A DNA stretch of 64,000 nucleotides from Longimicrobiales bacterium (GTDB lineage Bacteria > Gemmatimonadota > Gemmatimonadetes > Longimicrobiales > Gaopeijiaceae). A program made the translations under genes and the position numbers. How positions within the stretch are numbered: position 1 is the first letter of the stretch; the number at the start of each line of letters is the position of its first letter. The DNA is taken from assembly GCA_958295645.1 (NCBI GenBank), contig OY282361.1, forward strand, positions 2,260,501 through 2,324,500, read 5' to 3'. Of the stretch, positions 6,173 to 25,148 are shown one piece after another. The notes under the pieces are model-generated. The model was not told the origin of the DNA, ran no database searches, and worked only from the letters and a program-made list of their open reading frames with translations.

Positions 6173-7381
6173 ATGCCCGACCCGATCCGCCAGCAGGACC
6201 CCACCGGCGCGCCCGACCCCACGCGACGCGACTTCCTCAAGACGGCGACAGTGGCCACGGGCGCCCTCTGGGCCGGCGCCGCCTGCACCGGCCAAGCCGA
6301 CGAGGAAACCGTCGAGCGCACCGCCGGTCCCCCGGAGCCCATGTCGATTCTCGTCCTCGGCGGAACCGGGTTCATCGGCCCGCACATGGTGGAGTACGCT
6401 GTGGCGCGCGGCCACGAAGTCACCCTCTTCAACCGCGGCCGCACCAACACGCACCTCTTCCCCGACCTGGAAAAGCTGGTCGGCGACCGCGACGGCGACC
6501 TGGCGGCGCTGGAGGGGCGCAGTTGGGACGCTGTGCTGGACAACTCCGGCTACGTGCCGCGCCACGTGCGCGACTCGGCCGAACTGCTGGCGGATTCGGG
6601 CCGCTACGTGTTCGTCTCGTCCATCTCCGCCTACAAGGATCTGGGCTCGTACGGCATTAGGGAGGACTACGAGGTCGGACGGCTCGACGATCCCACCGTG
6701 GAAGAGGTGAACGGCGTCACCTACGGACCGCTCAAGGCGCTCTGCGAGGAGGCTGTGCAGGACGTCTTCGGCAGGCGGGCCACGATCGTCCGGCCCGGAT
6801 ACATCGTCGGCCCCGGCGACGGCACGGACCGCTGGACCTACTGGCCCGTGCGCACGGCGGCGGGCGGCGAAATGGCCGTGCCGGGCACCCCGGTGGACCC
6901 CGTCCAGATCATCGACGCGCGCGATCTCGGCGGATGGATGGTGCGGATGGCCGAGCAGGGGACCGGCGGCGTGTTCAACGGCGTAGGGCCGGCCCTGGGC
7001 ATCAACATGCGGATGATGCTCGAAGCCTGCCGGGAGGTGACCGGCAGCGACGCCGACTTCGAGTGGATCGACGCCGACTTCGTGGAGGAGCACGGCGCCC
7101 GCTTCCCGATCTGGACGCAGCCGGAGGACGAGAGCTGGGGAGGAGCCCATCTCGTCGACAATTCGCGGGCGCTTGACGCGGGCTACACCAGCCGCCCCAT
7201 CGCCGACACGATCCGCGACACGCTGGAGTGGTGGAACGGCCTGCCCGCCGACGCCCGGCCCGACGGCATGAGAAACGGCTTCCGCAAAGCGCCGGAACTC
7301 GGAGGCGGCCCCGCGACCCTGGAAGCGATGCGCGAGGCGGAGAACCAGTTGCTGGAGGCGTGGGCGGCCAAGGGCTACTAG
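6173..7381 (+). CDS. Tat-exported NAD(P)-dependent epimerase/dehydratase lipoprotein
   Basis: This 402-residue protein is an extended short-chain dehydrogenase with a Tat signal (TRRDFLKTATVATGALWAG) ending in a lipobox-like GAAC, so it is probably a Tat-exported lipoprotein. The Rossmann motif is ILVLGGTGFIG near residue 60 and the catalytic Tyr-Lys pair is in TYGPLK. The C-terminal half resembles the isoflavone-reductase/epimerase group seen in other exported sugar-modifying enzymes. It diverges from the PhoX gene across about 180 bp that must hold both promoters. Its stop codon shares a CTAG palindrome with the stop of the convergent DUF499 gene. The substrate is unknown. Confidence 0.88.
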   Translation: MPDPIRQQDPTGAPDPTRRDFLKTATVATGALWAGAACTGQADEETVERTAGPPEPMSILVLGGTGFIGPHMVEYAVARGHEVTLFNRGRTNTHLFPDLEKLVGDRDGDLAALEGRSWDAVLDNSGYVPRHVRDSAELLADSGRYVFVSSISAYKDLGSYGIREDYEVGRLDDPTVEEVNGVTYGPLKALCEEAVQDVFGRRATIVRPGYIVGPGDGTDRWTYWPVRTAAGGEMAVPGTPVDPVQIIDARDLGGWMVRMAEQGTGGVFNGVGPALGINMRMMLEACREVTGSDADFEWIDADFVEEHGARFPIWTQPEDESWGGAHLVDNSRALDAGYTSRPIADTIRDTLEWWNGLPADARPDGMRNGFRKAPELGGGPATLEAMREAENQLLEAWAAKGY

Positions 7382-10300
7382 TCCACCTTAAGCCCTTTCG
7401 TCACCCGCTCCAGGGCTTGGTTCACCGCCGTTCTTTCGGCGGCGTCCAGTCCTCCCTCGGCTTTGACGCCGACCTGGAAGCGCAGCTGGGCGGTCGGAGC
7501 GGCCTCCAGCAGTTCGGGGATTCTCTCGCCCAGTTCCTGCACTTGCTCCGCGTCCAGAGTCACGACCATGAACTCGCGGCCCAGAGGCGGCTGGCGGGTG
7601 CCGTCGGGGGGGTCGTCGGGGCCGTCCGGACCGTCGCTAGAGTACTTCGGCAACGACGGGCGCTCCAGCAAGAGGGCTCCGGCTTGGGCCCAGGGACAGT
7701 CCTCCACCGAAACACTGTTCGGCAACAAGGAGAGCCAGCGGGAGTCCACCGACTCCTTGATGCCGCGGGCCATCAGCGGCCATGGGAGCGCGCGACCTCG
7801 CTTGACGCCCAAGGCCTGGGTGAGCTCGGCGCCGTTCGTCCTGCCGTCCGACCACGCGGAGGGCAGGTTCTCTTCGGTGAGATCCCCAGCCGCCACGGGC
7901 GTGGGGCGGGGCAGCAACTTGGCGCCCTCTCCAATCGCCCCGTGAGGAACGTCCTCAAGCCAAACGGAAGCCGGGCCGCTGATCAGCCAGACCGCTCCCT
8001 CCTTCACCGCCTCGCGCACAGCATCGTGCAACACCTGCTCGGAACACTTGGGGATGATCGCGCTTTCCGTGAGTTCGCCCACTAGGACGGGCACCTCGTA
8101 GCCGCCCGCGAAGTACTCGGCTAGGCGGGCAAGCGTGAGACAAGCGCCACCGGACTGATCCGCACCGTCGCCTGCGTCGCCTTCGGGCCACAGCTCGGGC
8201 AACGTCCCGGGCGCCAGCAGAGTCGGCAGCAGGTGGTCGAGCTCCGCGTTCTTCGGCAACGCGACCTGCAGTTGCGGGTCGGCGCTGGAGGCTTCCTCCA
8301 CGGACTCGCGCCACCACGTGCGACGGCTGCCGTCCGGGCGCTTCAGACAGGCGACGAACAAGCCGTCCTTGACGCCTTGAAATACCGTACCGAAGAGCAG
8401 TTGCGAGTTGAGCGCCTTGGGCAGGCGGGGACGGCGGGCGAAGGCGCTGGCCAAGTCCGCGACGAAGCGGGATTCCTCGTCCTCGCGCCACAAGTCGTAA
8501 GGACCGCCGGGCGCCAGGGCTTCGGCGTTGATGACAGTCTCTTGAATGCGCGACCGTTTGTCCTTCTTGATCTCGATGAAGAGAGACTTGTCCACGCTGG
8601 CCAACTTGAACGCGTGGACTTCGCCGTCCCGGCCGAAGGTCGTGACGATGCACCAGGCGGCTCGCAACGTCCCCGGAACGCGACGTCGCGCCTCCTCCAG
8701 CCGACGGCGGAGACGCAATTTCTGAGCCGCCTCCACTCCGTGTCCCGCCAACTGGACTTCGACTTCTTCCCAGCCCAGCAGCGCACGGATTTCCCCTCGC
8801 ACGGCCTTCAAGCCATCGCGAGAAGGCGCCGCCACGACCAGCGCGTTGCGGTGCACGCGGGGGCGGTCCTCGCCCTTGGTCGCCAGGAAGCTCGTCGCCA
8901 GCTTGCTCGGCTTTCCCGACTCGGAGGCGCCCGCGATGCCCAGAACCACGTAGCGGAACTTCAGGTCGTCGGCCACGTCCTGGGGCGACGCGGGCATCAT
9001 GTGCACTTGGACTCCGGCTGCCGAGGCGCCTTCGGTCAACGACTTCGTCTTGCGAGCCGCTGCCTCCAAGTAGTGATCGACCGCCTGCTCCGTGACGCGG
9101 TTTCTGCATGCGTCGTCGTGCATCTGGCGCAGGTTCGGGCGGTTGCCCAGCCGCCAGTCCTTGGGCAGGCCGGGGCCGCGCCGCTCGCCCGGGCCCGCAT
9201 CCTCGTCGTCCAGGAACCAGGAGACGTCGCGCCACCGCTCGAGCCCCTTGTCCACTTCGATCTTGTTGGGCGCACCAGCCCCGATCATCCGGCACAGAGG
9301 CTGCGTCTGAATCTTGCGGCCTACCGGCTGCGAGTGCAGAAACACCGCGACCACCGCCTGCTCGGCTTCGCGGCCGGGGGCCAGCGCCGGAAGCTCGTGC
9401 TGTATGTCGCGCGCCTTCTCAAGCTCCTTCGCGAGCAACGGCTTCCATTCCGTCTTCTTGCCGTCCACGGGCTCGGTCGTGGCTATACCCGCCAGCTCGC
9501 CGATGGCCTCGGACACGCCGGTGTCGCCGGGCGCGGTCAGCAACGCGGCGGGGCCGACCAAAGGACTGGTGTCCCACTTCTCGGCCTCGCGCAGCGCCGT
9601 CGCCAGCGTTCGCAGGATGCCCCTCGTGCGCTGAAATCCCTCCAGTTGCGTCCAACAGGTGTAGAAGACGTCCGTCAGCTTGGGGTGGAACGGGAAGTTG
9701 CGCAGGAAGTGTTCCTCGTCTTCGGGGCGGGAGCGGTCCGTGGTCGGCTGCACCTTGGCCAAGTTCCGCACTACGCCGATGACGTGAGATCGGTACGTCT
9801 CGGGCTCCCTGATGTCTTCGGCCTCGAAGAACCGGCGGCGCAGCACCTCGGCCACGTCCTTCTTCTGAACCGGCTCCACGCCCTCTTCCTTTTGGCGGCG
9901 CACGACGTCGAAGAGGGAGTGCATCAGCGCCTTTCCGGTCTCGTCGGCTTGCTTTCGCGGGTCGGTCGCCAGGAGCGACACCACCATGGCGGCCCGGTTC
10001 ACCTTGACCACGGCCTGGGTCAGGTGCTGGAAGAAGTCCACGATGCGGTCGCCCCAAACGGCGTCCTTGCCCGCCTTGCTGCGCGCGTACATGAGGACCT
10101 CGTCCACCAGGATCAGCGTGGACATCCCGCGCTCCTGCGGCTTGGCGAGAAGCTCCGCCAGAAGAGGCTCCGCAGGCGGCGTCTCGCGCTCCTGGGCCTG
10201 CCCGTCCGCGTGGATGGCGCGCAGTCCGTCGTCGCCGACGAGCTGGTAGGCCAGCACGCTCCACGGATGCAGCAGATCGCGGGTCTCGCCGGCTGGTCCA

Positions 10301-10746
10301 CGCACGCTCTTGATGCCCGTCTCCACGTCGATCTTGTCGAAGCAGAGCGTCGCTGGATAGGCCGCGGGCAGGTCGTAGCCCACATGCTCGCGGAACTCGC
10401 TGACGGCGGGCAACTCCGGCAACGCGGTGGGATCGCGGAACAAGTGGTAGAGCGTGATGAGCGTGTGCGTCTTGCCCCCGCCGTAGGTGAGCTCCAGCTG
10501 CCGCACGGCCTTGTCGCTCTGCCCCGCTAGGCGTCCCGCCACGTCGCGGACCAAGTCCCGCAGCGCGTGCGTCGCGTAGGTGAGGCCGAAGAAGCGCTCG
10601 GGGTTCTCGTAGACCGGGTGACTGCCCCGGCCCAGGGTCACTTCATGGAGGTCGGCGGCGAACTGGGCCAGCGAGAGTTCGCCGGTCCGAAGTTCTTCCT
10701 TCAGCCGGACGACTTCGTGCCATGGCTTGAGGCGGGGCTTCGTCAC
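7378..10746 (-). CDS. DUF499 P-loop ATPase of a helicase-methylase-ATPase (Hma-like) defence system
   Basis: This 1,122-residue protein is a DUF499 family ATPase, a family repeatedly found beside DUF1156 methyltransferases and SNF2 helicases in phage-defence loci. The nucleotide-binding loop is YGGGKTH at about residues 88-94 and the Walker B strand is LILVDE at 211-216. The N-terminus (WHEVV...GELSLAQFAADL) is the standard family opening. The start is GTG at 10746, chosen because it begins the conserved sequence and has AGGAG about 8 bp upstream. It is the last gene of the operon, 37 bp after the methyltransferase. Its C-terminal 400 residues are diverse, with no recognised domain. It probably powers DNA recognition or translocation by the complex, by inference. 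Confidence 0.9.
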   Translation of the reverse strand: MTKPRLKPWHEVVRLKEELRTGELSLAQFAADLHEVTLGRGSHPVYENPERFFGLTYATHALRDLVRDVAGRLAGQSDKAVRQLELTYGGGKTHTLITLYHLFRDPTALPELPAVSEFREHVGYDLPAAYPATLCFDKIDVETGIKSVRGPAGETRDLLHPWSVLAYQLVGDDGLRAIHADGQAQERETPPAEPLLAELLAKPQERGMSTLILVDEVLMYARSKAGKDAVWGDRIVDFFQHLTQAVVKVNRAAMVVSLLATDPRKQADETGKALMHSLFDVVRRQKEEGVEPVQKKDVAEVLRRRFFEAEDIREPETYRSHVIGVVRNLAKVQPTTDRSRPEDEEHFLRNFPFHPKLTDVFYTCWTQLEGFQRTRGILRTLATALREAEKWDTSPLVGPAALLTAPGDTGVSEAIGELAGIATTEPVDGKKTEWKPLLAKELEKARDIQHELPALAPGREAEQAVVAVFLHSQPVGRKIQTQPLCRMIGAGAPNKIEVDKGLERWRDVSWFLDDEDAGPGERRGPGLPKDWRLGNRPNLRQMHDDACRNRVTEQAVDHYLEAAARKTKSLTEGASAAGVQVHMMPASPQDVADDLKFRYVVLGIAGASESGKPSKLATSFLATKGEDRPRVHRNALVVAAPSRDGLKAVRGEIRALLGWEEVEVQLAGHGVEAAQKLRLRRRLEEARRRVPGTLRAAWCIVTTFGRDGEVHAFKLASVDKSLFIEIKKDKRSRIQETVINAEALAPGGPYDLWREDEESRFVADLASAFARRPRLPKALNSQLLFGTVFQGVKDGLFVACLKRPDGSRRTWWRESVEEASSADPQLQVALPKNAELDHLLPTLLAPGTLPELWPEGDAGDGADQSGGACLTLARLAEYFAGGYEVPVLVGELTESAIIPKCSEQVLHDAVREAVKEGAVWLISGPASVWLEDVPHGAIGEGAKLLPRPTPVAAGDLTEENLPSAWSDGRTNGAELTQALGVKRGRALPWPLMARGIKESVDSRWLSLLPNSVSVEDCPWAQAGALLLERPSLPKYSSDGPDGPDDPPDGTRQPPLGREFMVVTLDAEQVQELGERIPELLEAAPTAQLRFQVGVKAEGGLDAAERTAVNQALERVTKGLKVD

Positions 10747-10783
10747 GTTGCGGGTCTCCTGGAGGGGCGGTTCATCGGCGATT

Positions 10784-13700
10784 CTACCAGAGGGCGCCCT
10801 GCCGGGCAACGGGCTGCTCGCGGACGCTGCTGCGCGAGCGCGCATGGAGAACGTGGTTCTGAATCGATTCCAAGATGGCCCGCTCGCCCGACCCCTCCTT
10901 CGCCAACTCGATGACGGCCTGGACGATTCGGGCGAACAACTCGTGCCTCCACAGCCCCCGCCGGTCCAGGTACGCGTCCACCTTCGACCGCTCGCCGGTC
11001 TTCCACAGCTGCATGACCCTGTGCACGCAGTCGATGAGCGGCGGCATCCGCCCGTCGGCCCCGACTTCGCCGAAGTTCGGACGCTTGCGGCCGTGCCAAG
11101 GCTTGATGCGGACCGTGCCGCCGGTTGCAGGTGCCACGGCTTCGTCACCCTCGGTTTCCCCGGTGGCCCCGCGCCCTCCCTTCGCGAGCAAGTCCAGCCG
11201 TCCCGTGAGTGCCGAGTCCGGCACGTCGCACGACAGAGCGTACAGAATGCAGGCCCCCGCCGGAGCGGACTCCAATCCGAAGTCGTTGCGGTGAAGCAGA
11301 TAGTACGTCGTGGGATCGTCCAGTTCGTCGTCGGCTCCGCCCTCGCGCTTGAGCAACCGGTTGACGACGAAGCCCACAACCATGCGTCGCACGCGCCGCA
11401 AGAATTCGTCGCTGGTCAACCGTTCGCCGGGAACGTCCGCCTTCTTGACGACGGGATGCTCGCTGAAGGCTTCAAGAGCCGGCCCGGTCGCCGCCCAAAC
11501 GAAGTCCGGGCCGCGAATGCCCGCGTCCCAAAAGTCGCGGAGTCGCTGGGTGATGTTCTCTTCCATCTCGGAGAGCACTTTGTGGTCCCAGCCGGCTTTG
11601 GCTCGGGCGGGGCGCTTTCGGCAGACGATCCAGATGGAGGAAGACAATGCGGCGGAGGCCATTGAGCGCTGCCGGGTCTGCATCTCGGTCTGGATGGGCC
11701 ATGAAGCGGTGACCGCGAAGCCCGCGCGGATCAGGGCCGACACCAACGTCTCCCAAGCGTCGGGAGACTTGTTGGCGAAGACGAGGACTAGGCGGCCGTC
11801 TTCGTGAAGCGCTTCGTAGAAGCTCTTGAAGGCGCGAAACATGCCGTCCTCGTAGTTCTTCTTGGAGGCCGCGCGGTCGCCGCCGAAGCGGCTAGCGTCG
11901 TCGATCAGTTCGCCGTCGTTGGTCTCGGCGTCCCACTTCGGACCGAGCGGCTCCGAGAACACTTCGTCGATCTCCGGCGACAATCCGTGGAGGGCGCGCC
12001 GAAGCCAGACGTGAAAGAAGTCCATCAGGTCCGAATAGGGGATCGCGTCGTAGTAAGGGGGATCGGTGCAGATGACGTCGAAGTTGTTCGAGCCTTGATC
12101 CTCGATGGCGCTCCGGCGACGAACCGTGGGAGCAGGAGCGGCCGCGATGGCCGGTGCCGTCCGGTCCAAATAGCGAGCGACCCATTCCGCCATTGCGGCG
12201 AACCCGCCGGTTCGTTCGGAGAGCGGGTTGACTTCGCAGTAGTCCCAGACCATGGGGAGGGCGAAGCGGGCGAAGGTGCTACGCATCTTCTCGTACCCGA
12301 CGGTCCATGAGCAGATAGTGCTGCTGTAGTCCGTCAGCTTGCTCAGGATGCAAGCGAGGTAGGCAACGATGGCTTCCTGCCATTCCTCGGGGTAGTCGGC
12401 CAAGTCGTCGCGGCAGTTGCGGACTTCGCGGACGAAGGCCCCCAGGGTGAAGAGCTGGCGGCTGTCGAAGAGGCTGCGCCAAGTGGTAAATCCATAGCCG
12501 CCCACCGAGAACGCCCTAGCCGCTCCGGCACCAGCTTCCGGCGTCGGTTCGTTCGGCAGGCCAAACGGAATCTCATCCCATACGTCTCGGAGCATTTCGT
12601 CTTCGACGCGAGCGGCTTCGACTTCCTCGTCCGTTGGCCCGCGATACTCCTTCCCGCTTTGGCCATCCACGACGACCGCCGTCATGATGGCGCCGAGGCC
12701 GCCCATGCTCCCCTCGCGACGAACGTCCGCCATCGTCATGACGGCACCGCAACAAGGACAAGTCACCCCCGTCCTGCTCATCGTGCCTGCTCCAGCCCGC
12801 CGATCGTGCTCCCTTCGCTGTGCAGGGCCGCCCTCCCCCTTCGGCACATCGGTCTCCACACCAAAAGCAAGCCCCCCGGCGTCGCCCCGACTACCCTCCA
12901 ACACAAGCCGAACCCGCTTCCGTTCCTTCTTGCAAAGCCAGCGCGTCTTCAGCAACGGGACATCAGCCCGGCAGTCGCTACACCGCACGGTCCGCGCCCA
13001 CAAGTACGCGACCGTCGGCTTCACAACCCACCGCGGATTCGCTCCGTTCGCCAAATACGACCGCTCAAACTCTGCATTGAGCTCGTCCGCCGATACGCGA
13101 CCGTCGGCCCCCGCCCCAACGATCTGCCGAGCACGTGCCTCGTAAGCCTTCGCAGCCCCCGACACGCCCGCCCGAGCCTTCTTCGGCTCGAACTCCGCAT
13201 ACGTCGGATACCGCCCCTCCACGGCCCGTCGAACCCGCTTCTGCACCCGCATCGCCCACGCCCGCAAGTGCCATCCAAAACCAGCACCATCCTCCAACGC
13301 TCCCCCCCTCAAGAACCCCGACTCCACCGATCCGCCGCCGTTCTCCCCCCTCCCCAGCCTCTTCACCTCTGCTTCCAGCCGCCCGCCCTTCAATCCCTTC
13401 GCCTTCAAGAAAGCCCGCACGAACACCTCGTCGGCAAGCGCAAACTCCGGCAACCGCCGCTTCCCATCAGCCACCAGCCTCGGATACCAAAGCGCGCACC
13501 GCAACAAGAAACACGCCACCGGACTCAAGTCCGACGCCACCACCTCGCAACCCAGCCGCATCCCCTCCAGCGGAATCGCCCCACCCCCCGCAAACGGATC
13601 GAGCACTCGCGGCGCCCGTCCGCCAAACGCCTCCCGCACTTCCTCCCGAAACCGTCGCACGCCCGCATCATCCTCCCGCCCCCACCGAAAAACCCCTCCA

Positions 13701-13987
13701 ACCGTCGTTTCCCTCCCCTCCCCAGGCTCTTTCACAACCGTCCCACCCATCCTCCCAATCACCGCCTCGCGCCCTCCCCGCGTACCCGGATCCGGCAACA
13801 GCGTCCCCAACACCGCCGCCCTGCTCGCCGCCAACGGCCGCCTAGCCGGCCAAATGTGGAGCGTCGACAAGTGCCCATGCCGAACCGCCTTCTCGTGCAC
13901 CGAATCCAACGAGACCTGGCGAAGCGGAAAGGCTACCTCGCCAATGCGGCGTTGCTCCACAATGCCATTTTCGCCGCTACTGGTCAT
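10784..13987 (-). CDS. DUF1156 DNA methyltransferase of the Hma-like defence system
   Basis: This 1,067-residue protein is a large DNA methyltransferase of the DUF1156 family, likely an adenine or N4-cytosine enzyme. The N-terminal DUF1156 block contains the conserved HIWPARRPLAASRA. The SAM-binding motif I is VLDPFAGGGAIPLEG at about residues 128-142 and the catalytic motif is TDPPYYDAIPYSDL near residue 640. The start at 13987 overlaps the KAP stop as ATGA; an upstream ATG at 14044 would overlap KAP coding by 61 bp and is less likely. In such systems the methyltransferase marks self DNA, so that the helicase and ATPase act on unmodified DNA; this role is inferred from the family and context. 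Confidence 0.92.
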   Translation of the reverse strand: MTSSGENGIVEQRRIGEVAFPLRQVSLDSVHEKAVRHGHLSTLHIWPARRPLAASRAAVLGTLLPDPGTRGGREAVIGRMGGTVVKEPGEGRETTVGGVFRWGREDDAGVRRFREEVREAFGGRAPRVLDPFAGGGAIPLEGMRLGCEVVASDLSPVACFLLRCALWYPRLVADGKRRLPEFALADEVFVRAFLKAKGLKGGRLEAEVKRLGRGENGGGSVESGFLRGGALEDGAGFGWHLRAWAMRVQKRVRRAVEGRYPTYAEFEPKKARAGVSGAAKAYEARARQIVGAGADGRVSADELNAEFERSYLANGANPRWVVKPTVAYLWARTVRCSDCRADVPLLKTRWLCKKERKRVRLVLEGSRGDAGGLAFGVETDVPKGEGGPAQRREHDRRAGAGTMSRTGVTCPCCGAVMTMADVRREGSMGGLGAIMTAVVVDGQSGKEYRGPTDEEVEAARVEDEMLRDVWDEIPFGLPNEPTPEAGAGAARAFSVGGYGFTTWRSLFDSRQLFTLGAFVREVRNCRDDLADYPEEWQEAIVAYLACILSKLTDYSSTICSWTVGYEKMRSTFARFALPMVWDYCEVNPLSERTGGFAAMAEWVARYLDRTAPAIAAAPAPTVRRRSAIEDQGSNNFDVICTDPPYYDAIPYSDLMDFFHVWLRRALHGLSPEIDEVFSEPLGPKWDAETNDGELIDDASRFGGDRAASKKNYEDGMFRAFKSFYEALHEDGRLVLVFANKSPDAWETLVSALIRAGFAVTASWPIQTEMQTRQRSMASAALSSSIWIVCRKRPARAKAGWDHKVLSEMEENITQRLRDFWDAGIRGPDFVWAATGPALEAFSEHPVVKKADVPGERLTSDEFLRRVRRMVVGFVVNRLLKREGGADDELDDPTTYYLLHRNDFGLESAPAGACILYALSCDVPDSALTGRLDLLAKGGRGATGETEGDEAVAPATGGTVRIKPWHGRKRPNFGEVGADGRMPPLIDCVHRVMQLWKTGERSKVDAYLDRRGLWRHELFARIVQAVIELAKEGSGERAILESIQNHVLHARSRSSVREQPVARQGALW

Positions 13988-15408
13988 GGGCCGCTGGAAA
14001 GTTCGATCAGGCTCACCAAGTGGCGTTTCCATCTGTCGATCCATCGGTGGCCCCTTCTGTCTTCCCAGGGCTTCGAGTTACTGGCAGTTCTGATCATATC
14101 TTCAAGTTCTTCCACGTCCGCGCGTTTTGTCGATTCAGCCAGTAAGGTCGTTGATGGGAGCTCTTCACCGCTATCATTCAAACGGTGTTGTCTCAGATGC
14201 CGCATTTGGCTAAGTGCAGTGGCATCATGTGGCATTTCTTCATCGCATACGGCATATAGAAATGCTGGTATGAGATTTATCCACGAATGATCGCCCGAAG
14301 GATAAGCAGTCTTGTCTATTCGTTTCTCTAATAATGTCAGCATTTCTCCCGCAACATGATCACCGTTCACGAAGCGTTGATACAAGTCAGGAGCAATTAG
14401 ACGAATAACGATAACAGCTACAATCACATGTGGTTGATAGCCAATTCTGTTTTGCGCCATATTGCCCGCGGCAAACGTTGCCATACGAATGCATTGTTCT
14501 ATGTCACGGAGCGACAAGTCTTCTATTGTGCTTGGAATGCGTGTTATCGCGTCATCGAAGCCTTCGGCATAGTCGGATCCCACGGATTCATCTATAATCA
14601 TCTTTGTGCGATATCGTTCTGCTACATGTGCACAATAACTACGCCGACTGACAGTTGGCAACGTGAATTCCATGTCGAAGATTCTTCTCAGGTAAATGTC
14701 TGCGTCGATATTGCCATAAAGCGATTTAATCGATTCGCATAACTCGCTTCGATTGATGCCGTAAACAAACATCAAACCGGGAATATTAAGAACGTGTTTG
14801 GTTCTTTCTAGCGTTGCAATGGCAAAGTCTGGACGGCATCGGTCAAGTTCATCGACGATACACACTAGCGGTCGATCCTCTTCCAGAAACTTGGCCATCG
14901 CCTCGCGTAGTCGACTCACGCTCGCTACTTGGTCTTCATATTTTGCTAGGATTTTGTCGCCAATTCTTGGTATCTGCAAGCCCAAGAAGCGCTTTACGAC
15001 ACTTTCAAGATTGTTGTAGGCAATCTCCTTTGCATTATCCGATAACGATTTCTTGATCTTGATGTCCTTACACTGCTTTACAATCTGCGCATTTACAATC
15101 TGCGCAAGCATTGCAACAAGAGGATCGCTACAAAAATCATCTTTCCATGCGTTAAAATATATTACTCTAAACTCGTTCTCCAATTGGTTCTTCCATCGTG
15201 TCAGGAAGAAGGTTTTGCCTGTGCCCCACTTTCCGTCCAGCGAAACGACGAATGGTCCTCGCTGGCTCTTGATCAGATTCGTTAGGGCATTTGCTGCCTG
15301 GCCACGATTAAGGGCATCATCCTTCCATGGATTCGTCTTGTCGATTTCGGGTTCAGGAAAAACGAGCTGAGGCTGAGGCATGGCCGTATTCTCGGGAGCA
15401 GTTGTCAT
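13984..15408 (-). CDS. KAP family P-loop NTPase inserted in the defence operon
   Basis: This 474-residue protein is a KAP-type P-loop NTPase. Walker A is GKWGTGKT at residues 59-66 and Walker B is LVCIVDELDRC at 181-191, both textbook for the family. The family is widespread in phage defence and signalling loci and often carries membrane helices inserted between the Walker motifs; none is evident here, so this one looks soluble. The gene is clearly AT-richer than its neighbours, as is the 3' part of the gene before it, which suggests the two arrived together. A GAGG ribosome site precedes the ATG. The stop overlaps the methyltransferase start (ATGA). KAP is not part of the minimal Hma set as I know it. 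Confidence 0.9.
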   Translation of the reverse strand: MTTAPENTAMPQPQLVFPEPEIDKTNPWKDDALNRGQAANALTNLIKSQRGPFVVSLDGKWGTGKTFFLTRWKNQLENEFRVIYFNAWKDDFCSDPLVAMLAQIVNAQIVKQCKDIKIKKSLSDNAKEIAYNNLESVVKRFLGLQIPRIGDKILAKYEDQVASVSRLREAMAKFLEEDRPLVCIVDELDRCRPDFAIATLERTKHVLNIPGLMFVYGINRSELCESIKSLYGNIDADIYLRRIFDMEFTLPTVSRRSYCAHVAERYRTKMIIDESVGSDYAEGFDDAITRIPSTIEDLSLRDIEQCIRMATFAAGNMAQNRIGYQPHVIVAVIVIRLIAPDLYQRFVNGDHVAGEMLTLLEKRIDKTAYPSGDHSWINLIPAFLYAVCDEEMPHDATALSQMRHLRQHRLNDSGEELPSTTLLAESTKRADVEELEDMIRTASNSKPWEDRRGHRWIDRWKRHLVSLIELSSGP

Positions 15409-15452
15409 GGTTTACCTCATCATAGATTGTAGTACGACATTAATGCATTGAC

Positions 15453-16196
15453 CTAAGTCAGTGTTCTCACCAGCGACAAGAAATCCTTAGCGAGTGGTAA
15501 GATGTTCTGCAGTTGCTTCTTGGTTCGTCGCCAACGATCATCGCTTATCTCGGCTACATCGTATCCAATCGATGTGACATGCAATATGTCGATCCTAGGA
15601 AACGACTCGCCTACGTAGTGCGCCATCGTGCGAATTTCCACGTATCCCTTTTCGGCTAAGTGTTGGCAATAAAGCGAAATATAATCTTCTTCGAGATTCG
15701 CGATCTCATCATTCTCGCATTCCCTCGCCAAAGATCTGATTTCCGTGCTAGGCAAAGGAAAGTCATTTGGTTCCCTGCTGGCCAGCAGGCTCAAAATGTT
15801 TCGGTATGCATCAAGGCGATCTGCTGTAGCCATCCCCTTCAACCTCACCGCGCGCAACTTCGTCAGCCGCTGGTTCCGAGGATCCACCTCCACACCCGCG
15901 GATTCCAGTGCGGTTACGCCCAGCAATGGCTCCGAGTTCGGGGCTCCGAAGACGACCAGCCCAGCGGTGAACTCGCCCATGAATTCGATCCGCGCCCCTG
16001 CGACGTCCATCGTCGCTTCGTGTCCGTCCGCCAGTTCGTAGACGCGTTGCCTCTCTGGCGTTATCCCGATGGCGTCCAGCTGGTTCCGGGGGATGACCGT
16101 GTCTGTCGCGCCGGTGTCCACCAAGAAGCGGCCCGTCCAGGTCCGGGATCGGTCGGCGAAGTTGCTGATCGTGACATCCACATGGATGGCTCCCAT
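15453..16196 (-). CDS. Retropepsin-like aspartic protease fused to a winged-helix (DUF2513-like) domain
   Basis: This 247-residue protein has two parts. Residues 1-120 are a clan AA retropepsin-like domain with the catalytic triplet in FLVDTGAT (D27-T-G-A30), the hydrophobic flap region and a conserved LLGVTALESAGVEVDP block near 91-106. Residues 125-247 look like a winged helix of the DUF2513 kind (EDYISLYCQHLAEKGYVEI, then HVTSIGYDVAEISDDRWRR). GC content drops at the junction, around 15830. The start at 16196 overlaps the preceding stop (TAATG) and matches the start of the degraded copy at 17903. Retropepsin-like single-domain proteases work as homodimers, so dimerisation is expected. Its target is unknown. 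Confidence 0.85.
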   Translation of the reverse strand: MGAIHVDVTISNFADRSRTWTGRFLVDTGATDTVIPRNQLDAIGITPERQRVYELADGHEATMDVAGARIEFMGEFTAGLVVFGAPNSEPLLGVTALESAGVEVDPRNQRLTKLRAVRLKGMATADRLDAYRNILSLLASREPNDFPLPSTEIRSLARECENDEIANLEEDYISLYCQHLAEKGYVEIRTMAHYVGESFPRIDILHVTSIGYDVAEISDDRWRRTKKQLQNILPLAKDFLSLVRTLT

Positions 16197-16351
16197 TACT
16201 CGCTGCCTTTCTGTTGAGGTTGAGGATCGTGGACGCGGAAGAGCCGGGGTTCCGGCGTCGGGTCGTCCAGGACCACGTAGAGCCAATACTCGTCGCCGAG
16301 ATTGTTGGCCTGCTTCCATTCGTTGGCCTCCCGCTGCACGCCGCCCTGGCC
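16012..16351 (-). repeat. Copy B of a duplicated helicase-end/protease-start segment
   Basis: This stretch repeats 17720-18145 in the same orientation, at roughly 95 percent identity outside gaps by eye. It holds the last helicase codons and the first 60 protease codons. Compared with copy A it has an in-frame deletion of 87 bp in the helicase tail. Boundaries are approximate. The 1.3-kb GHKL gene lies between the copies. Confidence 0.85.
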
Positions 16352-16366
16352 CATCGCCAGCTTCAT
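16196..16366 (-). CDS. Orphan fragment of the helicase DUF3883 domain (56 aa)
   Basis: This short frame begins with an ATG overlapping the stop of the GHKL gene (ATGA) and ends in a TAA overlapping the protease start. Its 56 residues repeat the extreme C-terminus of the helicase at 17900-18145: EANEWKQANNLGDEYWLYVV, then TPEPRLFRV and QKGSE. A block of exactly 29 residues found in the helicase tail is missing here. It therefore comes from the tandem duplication described in the repeat entries. Both overlaps would let it be translated, but whether the short product is stable or merely bridges translation between its neighbours is unknown. Confidence 0.7.
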   Translation of the reverse strand: MKLAMGQGGVQREANEWKQANNLGDEYWLYVVLDDPTPEPRLFRVHDPQPQQKGSE

Positions 16367-17652
16367 TGTCTATACTCCACGAGTGCTGACTTGCCCACTA
16401 CGGCCGCTACCCGAATCGTCATGTTGGCACTGGCTGAATCGGTAAGCAGCAGGTCTTGGCCCAACAAGAAAGCGGCCGGTTGCTCGATCCCTTGGTCGAT
16501 GGTCGCGCCGGAAACGTGGAGACTGGTCCTGTCGTGCACGTCCCGCACAGGATTGAGCGTAGCCAACAGGCCGGGAACTTCGCCGACCCCGTCCGCCAGA
16601 ATGACCGACCCGCCTTCAGCAAGTCGCTGGAGATCGATGTCCAAGCGCCGGTCGTCCGTTGCCGGAACCCACTTCTGCCTCACATAGGCCTCGAAGCCCG
16701 TAGCAGCTACGAACAACGTCATCGGCAGATGCGTCGAGTGCAGGTTCATGGTCGCGGCACCTTCAATGTTGCTCGATGCTTGTTCGTAGGCACCGTCGGG
16801 GAAGTGCAGGAGGATGGCGGCCTCGGCGATCGGCCTGCCAGCGGATTGCACGCAGAACGCGACACGGCCGGGAGTCCACGCCAGCGGGGCCGCTGGAATC
16901 GTGAGCCGCAAGTCGGTTTCGCCGATCAACTCGTAGAACGGGGGTTCGGCACCGAGCGCCTCGGTCTGGTGACGAATGATGCCCACGCCGTCGCCTCTCC
17001 TCTCCATGAAGAACTGGCTGTCGCCGGAGCCGCGAACCTTCTGCGAACTCATGCGGCCCAGCGTGGACGCCAGCACCTCGTTGCGGGTCGCTTGTTGAGC
17101 GTCCATGAAGGCGACCCGCAGGCCGTTGGCCAATGGGCCGGGCGACTGAATCTCCAGCCGGTCCTCGAACAGGGATAGGCGGATGCGACGTCCGCGAATC
17201 GAGTAGTCGCGGTGCGCGACAGCGTTCACGACGGCTTCGAAGACGGCCCTGTCGCTGAACTGCGGGAGGTCCACGCGGCCGGGTTCCTTTCGGGCGGCGA
17301 CGCGCATGTTGCAGAGCACGAAGGCCACCGCGGCGGCAATCTGCTTGTCCAGCGGGCCGCAGATCGTCTTCGCGTCGATCTGCATGGAGGCTCGGTCGGC
17401 GCCTCTGTAGCACGTCGCCGTGATGCAGGCGTTGTCGAGCCACTCTTCAGGCGCTCGGGCGCACAGGAGCAGACCCGCCACCGACGCCCTCGGCGTTCCT
17501 CGCTCGTCTCTCGTCAGCAATCCCATCTTCTCCAGGGCCACCTCGGGAGCGGCAGCCCCGTGAATGCTGACCAGGCTCTTCCACAAGGCTTCGTCCAGGC
17601 TCTGCAGCCCCGTGTCTGGAACGGCGGACTTGTCGAATCCCGCGAACTTCAT
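16363..17652 (-). CDS. GHKL-type ATPase (RecG-like/COG2865 C-terminal module) inserted in the defence operon
   Basis: This 429-residue protein matches the ATP-binding part of the COG2865 family (often annotated as RecG-like helicase or AlbA_2 domain transcriptional regulator). The conserved Asn box is EAVVNAVAHRDYS at residues 139-151 and the following RIRLSLFEDRLEIQSPGPL is the usual G1 region. The N-terminal AlbA_2 domain of about 130 residues normally found in the family is absent; the protein begins close to the inter-domain linker. About 180 C-terminal residues have no recognised fold. Start and stop each overlap the neighbouring frame by ATGA. It sits between the two copies of the duplicated helicase/protease junction. 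Its role is unknown; nucleotide sensing is plausible. Confidence 0.8.
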   Translation of the reverse strand: MKFAGFDKSAVPDTGLQSLDEALWKSLVSIHGAAAPEVALEKMGLLTRDERGTPRASVAGLLLCARAPEEWLDNACITATCYRGADRASMQIDAKTICGPLDKQIAAAVAFVLCNMRVAARKEPGRVDLPQFSDRAVFEAVVNAVAHRDYSIRGRRIRLSLFEDRLEIQSPGPLANGLRVAFMDAQQATRNEVLASTLGRMSSQKVRGSGDSQFFMERRGDGVGIIRHQTEALGAEPPFYELIGETDLRLTIPAAPLAWTPGRVAFCVQSAGRPIAEAAILLHFPDGAYEQASSNIEGAATMNLHSTHLPMTLFVAATGFEAYVRQKWVPATDDRRLDIDLQRLAEGGSVILADGVGEVPGLLATLNPVRDVHDRTSLHVSGATIDQGIEQPAAFLLGQDLLLTDSASANMTIRVAAVVGKSALVEYRQ

Positions 17653-17903
17653 GCGGGCAACGCTCGGCTGACCCTGGGCCAGGAATGCGGCCCATCCATC
17701 CCTTCAACCTCACCGAAGGCTTCGCGTCCGTCCGCCAGTTCGTAGAGGCGCTGCCTCTCCGGCGTTATCCCGATGGCGTCCAGCTGGTTCCGGGGGATGA
17801 CCGTGTCCGTCGCGCCGGTGTCCACCAAGAAGCGGCCCGTCCAGCTCCGGGACCGGTCGGCGAAGTTGCTGATCGTGACATCCACATGGATGGCTCCCAT
17901 CAT
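17649..17903 (-). pseudogene. Truncated retropepsin-like protease remnant
   Basis: The first 60 residues are almost the same as the intact protease at 15453-16196, including the catalytic LVDTGATDTVIP, and the DNA is about 96 percent identical by eye over the shared part. After ELADGREA about 175 bp are deleted and the frame rejoins a copy of the sequence encoding the end of the protease domain, shifted out of its original frame, so the product is only 84 residues. It lacks the flap and the C-terminal half of the fold. The start overlaps the helicase stop and its stop overlaps the GHKL start, so it may still serve translational coupling. Confidence 0.82.
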
Positions 17904-18145
17904 TCGCCACCTTTCTGTCGAGGCTGTTGGTGCCCGCGGCCCGCCGCCAGAATGTCCTTCGCCGAAATAGTGTACCGCACGCTCGTTGTCCGGCCAGCGA
18001 CGAAAGTGTCGAAGGGATCGCGGACGCGGAAGAGCCGGGGCTCCGGCGTCGCGCAGTCCAGGACAACGTAGAGCCAGTATTCGTCGCCGAGATTGTTGGC
18101 CTGCTTCCATTCGTTGGCCTCCATCAGCACGCCGCCCTGGCCGGC
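17720..18145 (-). repeat. Copy A of a duplicated helicase-end/protease-start segment
   Basis: This copy carries the intact helicase 3' end and the first 60 codons of a protease gene, then breaks. A further short match beyond the break, near 17695-17712, corresponds to sequence near 15831-15848, showing that the protease copy here was once longer and lost an internal piece. It is directly repeated at 16012-16351. Boundaries are approximate. Confidence 0.85.
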
Positions 18146-21100
18146 CCGGCCCTTGACCTCGATGTGCCGGCGTTCCCGGCCCGGGCGGTCGGACACCAGG
18201 TCGAAGCCGGGCCAGTCGGAGAAGCCCGCGACCCGGGCCAGCGCGGGCTTGGACACGTCGCGGACGGAGCCGCCGTGCTCGCGCTCCCACGCGGCGGCGA
18301 CGCCTACGGCAACCTCCTCGACTCTGGCGTCGTAGCGGTCCACGTCGCCGGTGCCGTGGATGCCTGCGGGCACCACTAGGGCGTGGGCGAGGAAGCGGAC
18401 GCCGCCGGGCACGATGCGCTCTGGTGCGGCGCTCAGCTGGTCCAGCGCGAGTCGGCGTTGTCCGGACACGACCTGCTGGCCGCGCTTGGCCTTCTCCAGG
18501 GCATCGGCGTCGTCCGGCGAGTCGGCGCCGGAGCCCGCGACTCGCTTGGCCAGCTCCTTGCGGCGGCGGGCGGCCTGGGCGGCCAGCAGACCGAATCCGA
18601 CCTCCACCTGCCGACGCCGTTCGGGGAGTTCCGCCCGCCTTGTCTCGCGCTGGCTCTCGACGAGTTCGGCGAGAATGCGGGACTCGGCGTGGGCGGCCGA
18701 CTCGGCACGCATCGACAGGCCTCGGCTCGCGAGCGGGACGGCGCCGGGAGGGAAGCCGGGCGCGCCCCTCAGGAGAAGGAAGTGCTCGACGGCGCATTCC
18801 GCCGGACCCGCGTCGCCGTCGTGACGCAACGCCAGCAGGCGACGGTCGAGGATTCGCCGGCCGACTCGGTCGGTCTCGATGCGGCCACCGTCGCCACGCT
18901 GGGGGCCAGCCTCGGTTCGCAGGCCGGCGATGGCCGTGGGGTCGGGTTGCTCTTCCACCGTGACCGTGGCCAAGTGGAAGGTGTAGGGGGCGTCGGCGCG
19001 GGGGTCCACGAAGACGGCGCCTCTGAGCGCGTCTCTGCCGAACGCCTCCTGGACCGCTCCGGCCAGGGAGTCGAAGACGGGTTCGCCGGGGCGGAGCCAG
19101 ACGGACGGGGCATCGCTCGCGGTCTCGGGCCGCCGGACGCACAAACGGGCTCGTGCTTCTTCGGGGTAGCCGTCCAAGGCGGGAAGGAGGGCGTCCAGAG
19201 CCCCGGCGCGGGCGGGCGAGAGGTCGAAGAAGCCGTCCAAGTCGCCGCGTATCTCCAAGCTCAGCAGGTCGGCGGCCCGTTCGACGAAGCGGCGCACGTA
19301 GCCGGGCAGGAGTTGCAGGTAGCGTTCGCGCTCCACGTCGCCTCGGAGTCCGGCCAGGCGGCCCGCCAAGTCGTCGTCGGCGCCGTAGAGTTCGCGTTCT
19401 TCGCCGTCGACGGCCCGCACGCGGTCGCTCGTCAGGACGCTCTCGATCTGTTGCGCGACATGCACCGGTCGCTGGCGTCCGCCATCCGCACGGCCGTCGC
19501 CTCCGGCCTCCAACGACTCCAGCATGTAGCGGCGCAGCGAGGCGTTCTCGAAGAGCCGCCCGATCACGTCGAACACCTTGTCCGAGTTCAGCTCGCGGCG
19601 GATCGCGTCCAGCTTGTCCAGCAGCACCTGGAGCACGCGGCCCTCGTGGGTCCGGCCGGCGACCAAGTTCACGATCTGCACATTGCGCTTTTGGCCGTAT
19701 CTGTGAACGCGGCCCATGCGTTGTTCCAGTCTGGCCGGGTTCCATGGAATGTCGTAGTTGGCCATCAGGCGGCAGAACTGGAGATTGATGCCCTCGCCAG
19801 CGGCGTCCGTGGCCACCAAGTAGCGGGCTCCCGAGGGGTCCCGGAAGCGCTCGACCTGCTCCTCGCGCTCCGGCCACGCCATTCCCCCATGGATGTGGGC
19901 AACCCTGCCGGCGTATCCCAGGCCCTCCAGTCGGCGGACCAAGTAGTCGACCGTGTCGCGGTGCTCGCTGAAGAGGAGCCACTTCTCGTCGGCGTGGCGG
20001 ACGTCTTCCAGCACCTCGCGCAGCTTCTCGAACTTGGACTCGCGACCCGTCTCCAGCAGTCTGCGCGCCCGGTCTCGAAGCCCGGCCACCGTGCGAACCT
20101 CCTGTTCGAGCTCCTCGATCGTGACGGCGATCACCGCGCCCAGGACGGCCTCCTCGTAGTCCTCGTTGCGTTCCTGGACGCCGGCGCGGCTTGCATCGGC
20201 CTCCTCCCAGCCGCCGTCTTGCCCGCGGCCGTCCTCGTCGGCGGTGCTGGAGTCGAAGAAGTCTTCGGAGTGCGCCCTGCCGATGTCGAGTTGGCGGCGT
20301 TCCAGCTCGTCCGTGGTGATGCGGCCTGCGGCGAGATCGGCGGCCGTCCGCTCCAGCTTGTCGATGCGGCGCTCGAACGACCGGAGCAGGGCATACGTCG
20401 AGCTGGCCAGCCTGCGCTGGAAGACGCTCATGGCCAAGCTGACCGCGGGGCGGTTCCGAAGGGCGCGGCCGTAGGTCTGGCGCAGGTAGGCCGTGGTCTC
20501 GTCGTAGAGGGCCTGTTCGCCGTCGGGGCCGGGCGTCAGGTCGTAGGAGAAGGTGTCGCAGGCCCGGTGCGGGTAGATGGGGCGGCCCTGCAGGTCGACC
20601 ATCTGCTCTTTGGTGCGGCGGACGAAGTGGCGGCTGCGCCCAGCGGACGGGAAGCGCCGAAGGGCCGCCTCGGTGGTGAAGACTTGGTCGTTCAGAAGGC
20701 GCCAAAGATGATGGTAGGGCGAGGACTTGCCCATGTGGGGCGTCGCGGTCAGGAGAAGCAGGTGCCGGGCGGACCACCTCATCCCTGCGAAGGGCGCCGC
20801 GGCGGCGCTGCAACCCGCCAGGGCCTCGGCCAGCTTGTAGCGGCGCGTCTTGCGGACGCGATGTTCGTCCGCCGTGGCGTGCAGCTTGTGGGCCTCGTCG
20901 AACACGACCAGGTCGTAGGCGGCCGCCGCGCCGGCGTCGCGGAGGGCGGAGAAGACCCGGTCGCCCGCCAGCGTGTCCAGCGAGACGATGGCCAAGTCGG
21001 CCCACGGTCCGATGAACTGGCCGGCGTCGGCCTGGCCCGCGGCCTCTCGTCCCCCGGCCGCGGCGCCGCGGCGCACGTCGGCTCCCGACACGATGCGGAA

Positions 21101-21769
21101 GTCGAGCCGGAACAGCGTGCGAAGCTCGCGCCGCCAGTTGCCGACGAGCCCTGCAGGCGGCACCACCAGAACGCGCCGGAGCCGGCCCCGCGACAGCATC
21201 TCGCGCACGTACAGGCCTGTCATGATCGTCTTGCCCGCGCCCGCGTCGTCCGCCAGCAGGAAGCGGAGGGGGTCCTGGCCCAGCATCCGTTCGTACACGG
21301 CAATGCGCTGGTGCGGCAACGGGTCGATGCGCGAGGTCTCGCTCGCGAAGGTCGGATTGAACTGATGCCCGTGGGCGAGCCGCCACGCCTCCGCCACGAC
21401 CGACACGGCTTCAGCATTGCCCGCGAAGTCGAGCGATGGGACGGACGCCGCCGCGAGCGCCTCCCAATGCCCGCCGTCCGCTCCGCCGACCAGAGTTGCC
21501 CGGCCCAGGCGTCGCGGCCGGCTCGCCAAGCTGACCCCGGCGGGCGTTGCGAGCTCGGCCGTCGCCGCGGCGGCCTCGGCAAGCTCGTCCAGTCGTTGCC
21601 GCGCCATCGGGTGAGGCCGCGACTTGCCCGCCTCCCACCGGTGCACCGTGACGGCGCTGACCCGCAAACGCTCCGCCAACTGGCCCTGCGTGAGGCCCAG
21701 ACTCTTGCGAAGCGCACGCAGCTGCGTCCCGTCGGCGCCGGTCTCGAGATTGGTCGCTGGAGTGCTCAT
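17900..21769 (-). CDS. HTH-SNF2 helicase with DUF3883 domain, first gene of the defence operon
   Basis: This 1,289-residue protein has three recognisable parts. Residues 15-60 are a Cro/CI-type helix-turn-helix (LGLTQGQLAERLRVSAVTVH). A SNF2-like superfamily 2 helicase follows, with motif I in ADDAGAGKT near residue 176, DEAH near 290, the TATPHMGK motif III, and the second RecA domain with GEGINLQF near 660 and QRMGRVHRYGQ near 690. The last 130 residues are a DUF3883-type, nuclease-like domain (IEVKGRAGQGG, then NEWKQANNLGDEYWLYVV). This order is typical of SNF2 helicases of DISARM and Hma loci. The HTH could let the protein regulate its own operon. The start is the only good one before the HTH. 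Confidence 0.92.
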   Translation of the reverse strand: MSTPATNLETGADGTQLRALRKSLGLTQGQLAERLRVSAVTVHRWEAGKSRPHPMARQRLDELAEAAAATAELATPAGVSLASRPRRLGRATLVGGADGGHWEALAAASVPSLDFAGNAEAVSVVAEAWRLAHGHQFNPTFASETSRIDPLPHQRIAVYERMLGQDPLRFLLADDAGAGKTIMTGLYVREMLSRGRLRRVLVVPPAGLVGNWRRELRTLFRLDFRIVSGADVRRGAAAGGREAAGQADAGQFIGPWADLAIVSLDTLAGDRVFSALRDAGAAAAYDLVVFDEAHKLHATADEHRVRKTRRYKLAEALAGCSAAAAPFAGMRWSARHLLLLTATPHMGKSSPYHHLWRLLNDQVFTTEAALRRFPSAGRSRHFVRRTKEQMVDLQGRPIYPHRACDTFSYDLTPGPDGEQALYDETTAYLRQTYGRALRNRPAVSLAMSVFQRRLASSTYALLRSFERRIDKLERTAADLAAGRITTDELERRQLDIGRAHSEDFFDSSTADEDGRGQDGGWEEADASRAGVQERNEDYEEAVLGAVIAVTIEELEQEVRTVAGLRDRARRLLETGRESKFEKLREVLEDVRHADEKWLLFSEHRDTVDYLVRRLEGLGYAGRVAHIHGGMAWPEREEQVERFRDPSGARYLVATDAAGEGINLQFCRLMANYDIPWNPARLEQRMGRVHRYGQKRNVQIVNLVAGRTHEGRVLQVLLDKLDAIRRELNSDKVFDVIGRLFENASLRRYMLESLEAGGDGRADGGRQRPVHVAQQIESVLTSDRVRAVDGEERELYGADDDLAGRLAGLRGDVERERYLQLLPGYVRRFVERAADLLSLEIRGDLDGFFDLSPARAGALDALLPALDGYPEEARARLCVRRPETASDAPSVWLRPGEPVFDSLAGAVQEAFGRDALRGAVFVDPRADAPYTFHLATVTVEEQPDPTAIAGLRTEAGPQRGDGGRIETDRVGRRILDRRLLALRHDGDAGPAECAVEHFLLLRGAPGFPPGAVPLASRGLSMRAESAAHAESRILAELVESQRETRRAELPERRRQVEVGFGLLAAQAARRRKELAKRVAGSGADSPDDADALEKAKRGQQVVSGQRRLALDQLSAAPERIVPGGVRFLAHALVVPAGIHGTGDVDRYDARVEEVAVGVAAAWEREHGGSVRDVSKPALARVAGFSDWPGFDLVSDRPGRERRHIEVKGRAGQGGVLMEANEWKQANNLGDEYWLYVVLDCATPEPRLFRVRDPFDTFVAGRTTSVRYTISAKDILAAGRGHQQPRQKGGE

Positions 21770-24512: not shown

Positions 24513-25148
24513 TCAGTTGGTACCGAGTTCGCGGAGCCTAGCAACCAGCTTCCCGACATCCGTGGACGAATGGCCTTGCGACACGCCTGGCCGTTTGCCG
24601 CGATTCATCGCCACGCACAACTTGTCGCGACAATCGTCATAAATAGCACGACTGTTCTTCTTGTAGTCTGGCAGATGGCTCTTGAGAGCTTCAATGACCT
24701 TGCTACATGCCGAGCGGCCCGAGAGTCCAAGAAATGGCCTTGTCGTATCTTCAAAGTGAATCAGTAGCCAGTACTCGAAGCAAGGAATCGATACGACTTC
24801 ATGGATCGCAAGTTTCTTTCTTCGGCTTTCTCTTGCAGTCTCCTTGACTTCCCGCGCAAGTCTCTCGATTTCGGCGTCCCTCTCGTCGTGATCCACGACA
24901 CACCATATTTCGTCGCCCGGCTCATGGCCTTTGATTTCCTGTCGAATCTTTTCAATCATCCTACCAATAGTCCTCAGGCCGACGACCTTGACGCTGGTCA
25001 AGCCAAATTCTTGTTTCAAGGCGCTGAAGTAATTGACCTCCGTTTCCTTGCCTTCGCACAAGACCAGAATCTTCGGTTGGCGTGCTTTCGCCCCATGGCG
25101 CCTTCTCGGCGTGCGGCTTCGCCTCCCCTTGCCGCGTTTCCGATTCAA
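24513..25148 (-). CDS. RloB family protein (AbiLii-like)
   Basis: This 211-residue protein matches RloB, the partner of an ATPase in restriction-linked and abortive-infection loci. The signature ILVLCEGKETEVNYFSALK is at residues 27-45, after a strongly basic N-terminal 25 residues. Acidic residues in WCVVDHDERDAE and the conserved SIPCFEYWLLIHFED block point to a TOPRIM-like metal-binding nuclease fold. The start is a TTG at 25148 that overlaps the RloA stop, the only arrangement that keeps the conserved part and couples translation. In lactococcal AbiL the equivalent pair stops phage growth. The gene is less GC-rich than its neighbours. Confidence 0.85.
   Translation of the reverse strand: MNRKRGKGRRSRTPRRRHGAKARQPKILVLCEGKETEVNYFSALKQEFGLTSVKVVGLRTIGRMIEKIRQEIKGHEPGDEIWCVVDHDERDAEIERLAREVKETARESRRKKLAIHEVVSIPCFEYWLLIHFEDTTRPFLGLSGRSACSKVIEALKSHLPDYKKNSRAIYDDCRDKLCVAMNRGKRPGVSQGHSSTDVGKLVARLRELGTN

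Follow-up and report, generated by a model that had tools for sequence, protein, structure and literature searches.

A direct repeat of the helicase-protease junction, probably a duplication scar, in a predicted Hma defence operon of a Longimicrobiales bacterium

Introduction

The Hma system was named in PMC8565338 and is treated in PMC12839542 as a DUF499-centred system related to BREX. Variable effectors, among them nuclease or Schlafen-type genes, have already been described inside BREX/BR operons (PMC12839542). The words retropepsin, aspartic protease and aspartyl protease are absent from PMC12839542, and no description of a retropepsin in Hma or type I restriction operons was found in the literature searched. 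Here we describe an Hma-type operon in which the junction between the helicase and a retropepsin-like protease occurs twice. All positions refer to the window, i.e., the whole 64,000-nt stretch of DNA that was analysed (contig OY282361.1, positions 2,260,501 to 2,324,500).

Results

Identity and layout of the operon

By profile matches, the gene cluster can be assigned to the Hma (DUF499/BREX-related) anti-phage defence operons, as a SNF2-family helicase (HmaA), a DUF1156 DNA methyltransferase (HmaB) and a DUF499 ATPase (HmaC) were all recognized by their PADLOC profiles. On the minus strand, the order is HmaA, truncated retropepsin, GHKL ATPase, orphan helicase tail, intact retropepsin, KAP NTPase, HmaB and HmaC:

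17900..21769, minus strand: HmaA, SNF2-type helicase (PADLOC HmaA, PDLC00659, E 1.3e-155; Pfam HTH_31, Helicase_C, NOV_C)
17649..17900, minus strand: truncated protease frame of copy A (frame read from the sequence)
16363..17652, minus strand: GHKL ATPase, HATPase_c_4 (Pfam PF13749, E 9.6e-16)
16196..16366, minus strand: orphan HmaA tail, an open 56-codon ORF (sequence)
15453..16196, minus strand: intact retropepsin-like aspartic protease, DTGATD, 247 codons (TIGR03698; HIV-protease fold)
15453..15833, minus strand: C-terminal extension of this protease, AT-rich (47.5% GC), with a weak DUF2513 resemblance
13984..15408, minus strand: KAP-family P-loop NTPase, cargo (PF07693, 1.8e-33; PDC-S20, 2.2e-90)
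10784..14044, minus strand: HmaB, DUF1156 DNA methyltransferase (PADLOC HmaB, PDLC00661, E 1.3e-107; PF06634, E 6.5e-18)
7378..11379, minus strand: HmaC, DUF499-type ATPase, ORF as listed (PADLOC HmaC, PDLC00662, E 5.4e-74; DUF499, PDLC02192, E 4.9e-17)

In Pfam, HmaA carries an XRE helix-turn-helix (HTH) in its N-terminal part (residues 14-70) and a NOV_C domain near its C terminus (1187-1241). The KAP stop overlaps the HmaB start (ATGA), for which 13987 is the likely position, and the conserved part of HmaC begins at approximately residue 210. An AbiL-like pair (AbiLi 4.1e-79, AbiLii 2.1e-27) adjoins the operon at 24513-26428, and the region can therefore be regarded as a defence island.

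Extent and divergence of the direct repeat

A first-pass annotation of this DNA had proposed that the helicase/protease junction is duplicated in direct orientation. Self-comparison gave a direct repeat, detected as two families in register, 16015-16222/17719-17926 (94%) and 16224-16351/18015-18142 (91%), and repeat finding together with alignment delimited two copies:

17719..18142, minus strand: copy A, last HmaA codons and head of the protease
16015..16351, minus strand: copy B, 87 bp shorter

The spacings of the two families are 1704 and 1791, so that 87 bp are missing from copy B; in the alignment this in-frame deletion, likewise proposed before, is the single gap, and 195/208 plus 117/128 positions, i.e., 312/336, are identical. 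Such identity is far beyond chance, and the homology is collinear and in direct orientation, as expected of a duplication. Only the GHKL gene (17652-16363) stands between the copies. As the annotation had it, copy A combines an intact HmaA with a broken protease, and copy B an orphan helicase tail with an intact protease.

In the protease part (182 nt) the copies differ in 7 codons (dN 0.022, dS 0.095) and in the helicase tail in 9 codons (dN 0.070, dS 0.177). With the related genome G025 as outgroup, 13 changes were polarised as derived in B and 5 in A, with 7 unassigned to either; by our reading of the alignment, 4/5 amino-acid changes of the helicase tail belong to copy B. This suggests that the orphan tail, though still open, has been drifting, and faster than copy A. 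An assembly artefact is contradicted by the 25 point differences, the 87-bp gap and the one-contig genome, and a template/variable repeat of the diversity-generating kind was rejected, as bases other than adenine also differ between A and B.

Losses in copy A

HmaA is intact in copy A, with its stop at 17900. The protease that follows has approximately 61 native codons and then runs out of frame to its end at 17649, where its stop overlaps the GHKL start (ATGA). We consider it probably inactive, since no strands would be formed after about residue 61. The end of the protease core survives just before the GHKL remnant:

17700..17714, minus strand: 15-nt remnant of the protease core end in copy A, equal to 15835-15849 in copy B (sequence comparison)

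A loss of about 175 bp from copy A had been suggested. The loss itself stands but its size does not: judged from the 15-nt remnant, approximately 161 bp net are gone from the core, and comparison with G025 adds further losses. The GHKL protein of the window is 70% identical to the G025 orthologue from residue 3 on, and its N-terminal SLFN_AlbA_2 half is absent; along with this half, the C-terminal domain of the protease has disappeared from copy A, and both losses are visible only against G025. Two deletions would explain this: the first would have removed approximately 161 bp net from within the protease core, and the second, which was longer, would have reached from the core end into the GHKL gene. 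Together with the 87-bp gap and the drifting tail in B, these losses agree with the later decay of both copies that the annotation had postulated.

The orphan tail and intact protease of copy B

The orphan-tail ORF is joined to its neighbours by an ATGA overlap with the GHKL stop and a TAATG overlap with the intact protease. Its ATG at 16366 matches the site of the next cargo gene's ATG in G025 and at locus L134, with the same overlap with the GHKL stop, which places the joint approximately 13 nt into the old next gene.

With 70.0 bits against TIGR03698, the copy B protease lies above the curated clan AA cutoff (57.35), and residues D27-T28-G29 were invariant in 16 sequences. Foldseek searches with its structural model (mean pLDDT 72; core mostly 80-94, C-terminal part weak) gave HIV-1 protease as the best matches, with E values of 3e-6 to 1.5e-5 and TM-scores by target length of mostly 0.64-0.78. 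Comparison with the G025 protease (dN 0.34, dS 1.76) is consistent with past constraint. The intact protease is presumably the one in use; on the likeliest reading, the operon retained one working protease, and the loss could have struck either copy. Among the genomes searched, its C-terminal extension was otherwise found only in G025, and none was found in 47 protease-rich genomes, a set without a positive control. Carriage of the protease by a mobile element was dismissed, as no relative was present in viral contigs or plasmids.

Gene order in relatives

The protease was searched for in 98 relatives, none of the 97 other genomes being labelled with the genus of the window's own. One strong full-length match was obtained, in G025, which belongs to the same family and is the nearest relative. 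It has a single junction, in the order HmaA, protease with the same C-terminal extension, full AlbA_2/GHKL gene, MmeI-like methyltransferase, two more genes and HmaB. Single helicase-protease junctions were seen at G025/L020, L051, L056, L063, L091 and L099, in line with the earlier proposal of an ancestor in which the protease came immediately after the helicase. Protease and AlbA-GHKL are also neighbours in L029, L044 and L134 and, as a ruin, in L022 (below). As the GHKL gene follows the protease in G025 and this neighbourhood recurs, it appears to be the old downstream neighbour of copy A; copy B and the KAP cargo would then be the added part, the GHKL gene having been present already rather than newly captured.

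The annotation had offered two origins, tandem duplication or gene capture at the junction. The former is supported by the direct repeat and by the single junctions of relatives, whereas capture of the GHKL gene conflicts with the G025 order helicase - protease - AlbA_2/GHKL. No relative was found that conserves the two copies independently and in full; among the genomes searched, which include none of the same genus, we saw neither a duplicate before its decay nor the single-copy state immediately preceding the event.

Further protease copies were observed in both genomes. Elsewhere in the window's genome (L022, C1:20000-39900), a third, ruined retropepsin (8807-9268; approximately 61% identity, one stop) runs into a GHKL stub, and at a distance of 6 kb there is an intact AlbA_2/GHKL gene (42%). 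In G025, a second protease (L021, 10298-7626) is preceded by a short, decayed piece of helicase tail and followed by another GHKL gene, a HATPase_c_3 with a weak Shedu C-terminal match.

Base composition and the cargo slot

The KAP gene has 46.6% GC and a GC3 of 47%, vs. a GC3 of 79-87% for HmaA, GHKL and HmaB; its composition is foreign. An AT-rich block from approximately 13950 to 15830 spans KAP and the protease C-terminal domain, the GC3 of this extension being 53% in copy B vs. 67% in G025. The protease core and the helicase tail of copy B are host-like (GC3 approximately 80%; core 81%). As to a KAP donor, no family match was obtained at E <= 1e-30 except a partial one (35%) in G004.

A protease scan of genome contigs gave 79 loci from many phyla, and the isolate names of many of the metagenome-assembled genomes (MAGs) concerned suggest sponge symbionts. 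Slots were compared for the loci with complete Hma genes and for those retrieved by a helicase-tail search in 49 genomes. What lies between HmaA/protease and HmaB varies, and the 16 slots compared hold mostly unrelated genes, identified by profile matches:

L152 slot: Gabija GajA/GajB
L137 slot: SIR2-APAZ with a Piwi-domain partner
L051 slot: TIR-APAZ
L139 slot: class II pAgo
L136 slot: NsnB-like ATPase
L141 slot (G105): KAP, distant (25% identity) from that of the window
L134 and G025 slots: AlbA_2/GHKL with a methyltransferase

In sum, the cargo of these 16 related operons includes Gabija, Argonaute pairs, KAP and Schlafen-ATPase. Since variable effectors are already known in BREX-related operons (PMC12839542), the slot represents a variation on a known theme.

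Each slot was then compared with its own core genes, exact matches being overlaps of the fetched pieces. Partial core-gene copies were found only in the window, in L153/G127 and in L143/G125, apart from one weak 76% match in L146. The window slot holds 128 nt of the HmaA tail at 91%, plus the protease; the other two hold the HmaB head between stacked cargos (67 nt at 92.5% in L153/G127, 29 nt at 93% in L143/G125). As G125 and G127 share cargo, their scars count as one event. Two apparent orphan helicase tails in G105 were set aside because they lie at contig ends.

Decayed parts were also encountered at other loci. In G128, 97 nt of the HmaA tail (L149, 6580-6676; 93% identical) stand behind HmaC, outside the slot, and G141 has a decayed operon (L147). 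L134 and L135 are near-identical operons, one with a truncated protease plus AlbA_2/GHKL and the other with an intact 517-aa gene. At L148 (367-1004), beside HmaC ruins, approximately 250 bp split a protease gene whose residues 58-66 are present on either side.

The retropepsin in other operons

In about a dozen loci, of which L038 was examined in detail, the same protease lies between an HTH-bearing HsdM-type N6 methyltransferase and an HsdS-like gene. Loci with the protease behind such a methyltransferase, mostly before an HsdS-like gene, are L036, L037, L038, L041-L047, L052, L061 and L103. Helicases with the HTH occurred 8 times with and 3 times without the protease, and those lacking it once with and 5 times without (p 0.05), in genomes picked through the protease and confounded by relatedness. 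In Acidobacteriota the protease was present for 5/12 HTH-bearing helicases vs. 0/17 without HTH (p 0.007), again confounded by relatedness. With both samples so confounded, the association is suggestive and only a lead.

Discussion

We interpret copies A and B as the scar of a duplication that ran from the last approximately 80 HmaA codons into the protease, located in the stretch of variable content that separates HmaA/protease from HmaB, and put the probability of this reading at roughly 0.78. The duplicated segment probably extended through the GHKL gene as well. As to the order of events and the mechanism, we infer an ancestor arranged as in G025, with HmaA, a protease with C-terminal domain, an AlbA_2/GHKL ATPase, further cargo and HmaB. 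Decay would then have been complementary: in copy A the helicase stayed complete and GHKL kept its ATPase half, with most of the protease lost, and in copy B the protease stayed complete, with only an orphan helicase tail remaining and the AT-rich KAP gene now following instead of the ancestral cargo. A local tandem duplication, after which the second GHKL gene was replaced, would be slightly favoured; an unequal exchange with a near-identical sister operon carrying protease-KAP would also fit. No remnant of a second AlbA_2/GHKL gene was seen behind copy B. The C-terminal domain of the copy B protease, more AT-rich than that of G025, speaks against duplication and could mean that copy B was partly imported.

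A full import is possible, though we consider it doubtful. A fragment of a related Hma operon, comprising HmaA tail, protease, KAP and HmaB head, would have entered by recombination, anchored in HmaB and joined illegitimately behind GHKL. This would account for the AT-richness of KAP and of the protease C-terminal domain relative to the genome; the distant KAP fills the same slot in G105, and import predicts the polarity seen in G125/G127, where an HmaB-head scar stands between two cargos. Yet GC3 is host-like in the protease core and the tail of copy B, and their identity to copy A reaches 93%, vs. 66% protein identity to G025, so that the donor would need to be a near relative.

A broader and unlikely scheme makes the retropepsin a shared regulatory part that acts on the XRE HTH fused to the lead enzyme, in Hma operons (HTH-HmaA) and in type I restriction operons (HTH-HsdM, protease, HsdS) alike, with a logic like that of ImmR/ImmA. 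Helicase tail, protease and HmaB head would anchor homologous recombination that exchanges the slot behind the retropepsin, and one such exchange, half decayed, would be preserved in the window.

Entry of the GHKL gene into the helicase-protease junction by homologous recombination, doubling the junction, would leave exactly one gene between the copies, as observed; it is nevertheless a quite improbable origin, and we rejected it on the gene order of G025, where the GHKL gene (70% identity) already stands behind the protease, and on the further loci at which protease and AlbA-GHKL are neighbours. With copies in direct orientation that share identical stretches of 36-47 nt, a RecA-dependent A x B deletion that loops out GHKL and leaves a helicase-protease-KAP operon would be feasible, but we give a functional switch of this kind hardly any credence, as both copies are visibly decaying, with B under relaxed constraint, the excised state was not seen, and the deletion would be one-way.

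Returning to duplication, we regard the site as a recombination scar of an ordinary kind, lying in a cargo slot that is of interest. Such a scar belongs to everyday genome evolution; this one is valuable because the ancestral gene order can be fixed from it. It also shows how cargo is stacked in Hma operons, with flanking core-gene fragments left on the helicase side here and on the methyltransferase side in G125/G127, and it points to a retropepsin found repeatedly in operons of both the Hma and the type I restriction kind.

Scars of tandem duplication and unequal exchange occur in bacterial genomes, and the window shares with them a direct repeat with complementary decay; nothing essential differs. 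With clan AA members recognized by TIGR03698 (retropepsin-like), the protease shares the score, the DTGATD motif and the HIV-protease fold, and it differs in the C-terminal extension that it has in common with G025 alone among the genomes searched. With Hma as defined in PADLOC (PMC8565338) and as a DUF499-centred BREX-related system (PMC12839542), the operon shares the SNF2 helicase, DUF1156 methyltransferase and DUF499 ATPase, in the same order on one strand; what sets the operon apart is that its helicase has an N-terminal XRE helix-turn-helix and is followed by a retropepsin, and that defence cargo separates helicase/protease from methyltransferase. Like the auxiliary or backup effectors of BREX/BR operons (PMC12839542), the cargo consists of variable genes lodged inside the operon; unlike those, it includes whole systems (Gabija, Argonaute pairs), all in one slot, and leaves behind partial copies of the adjoining core genes.
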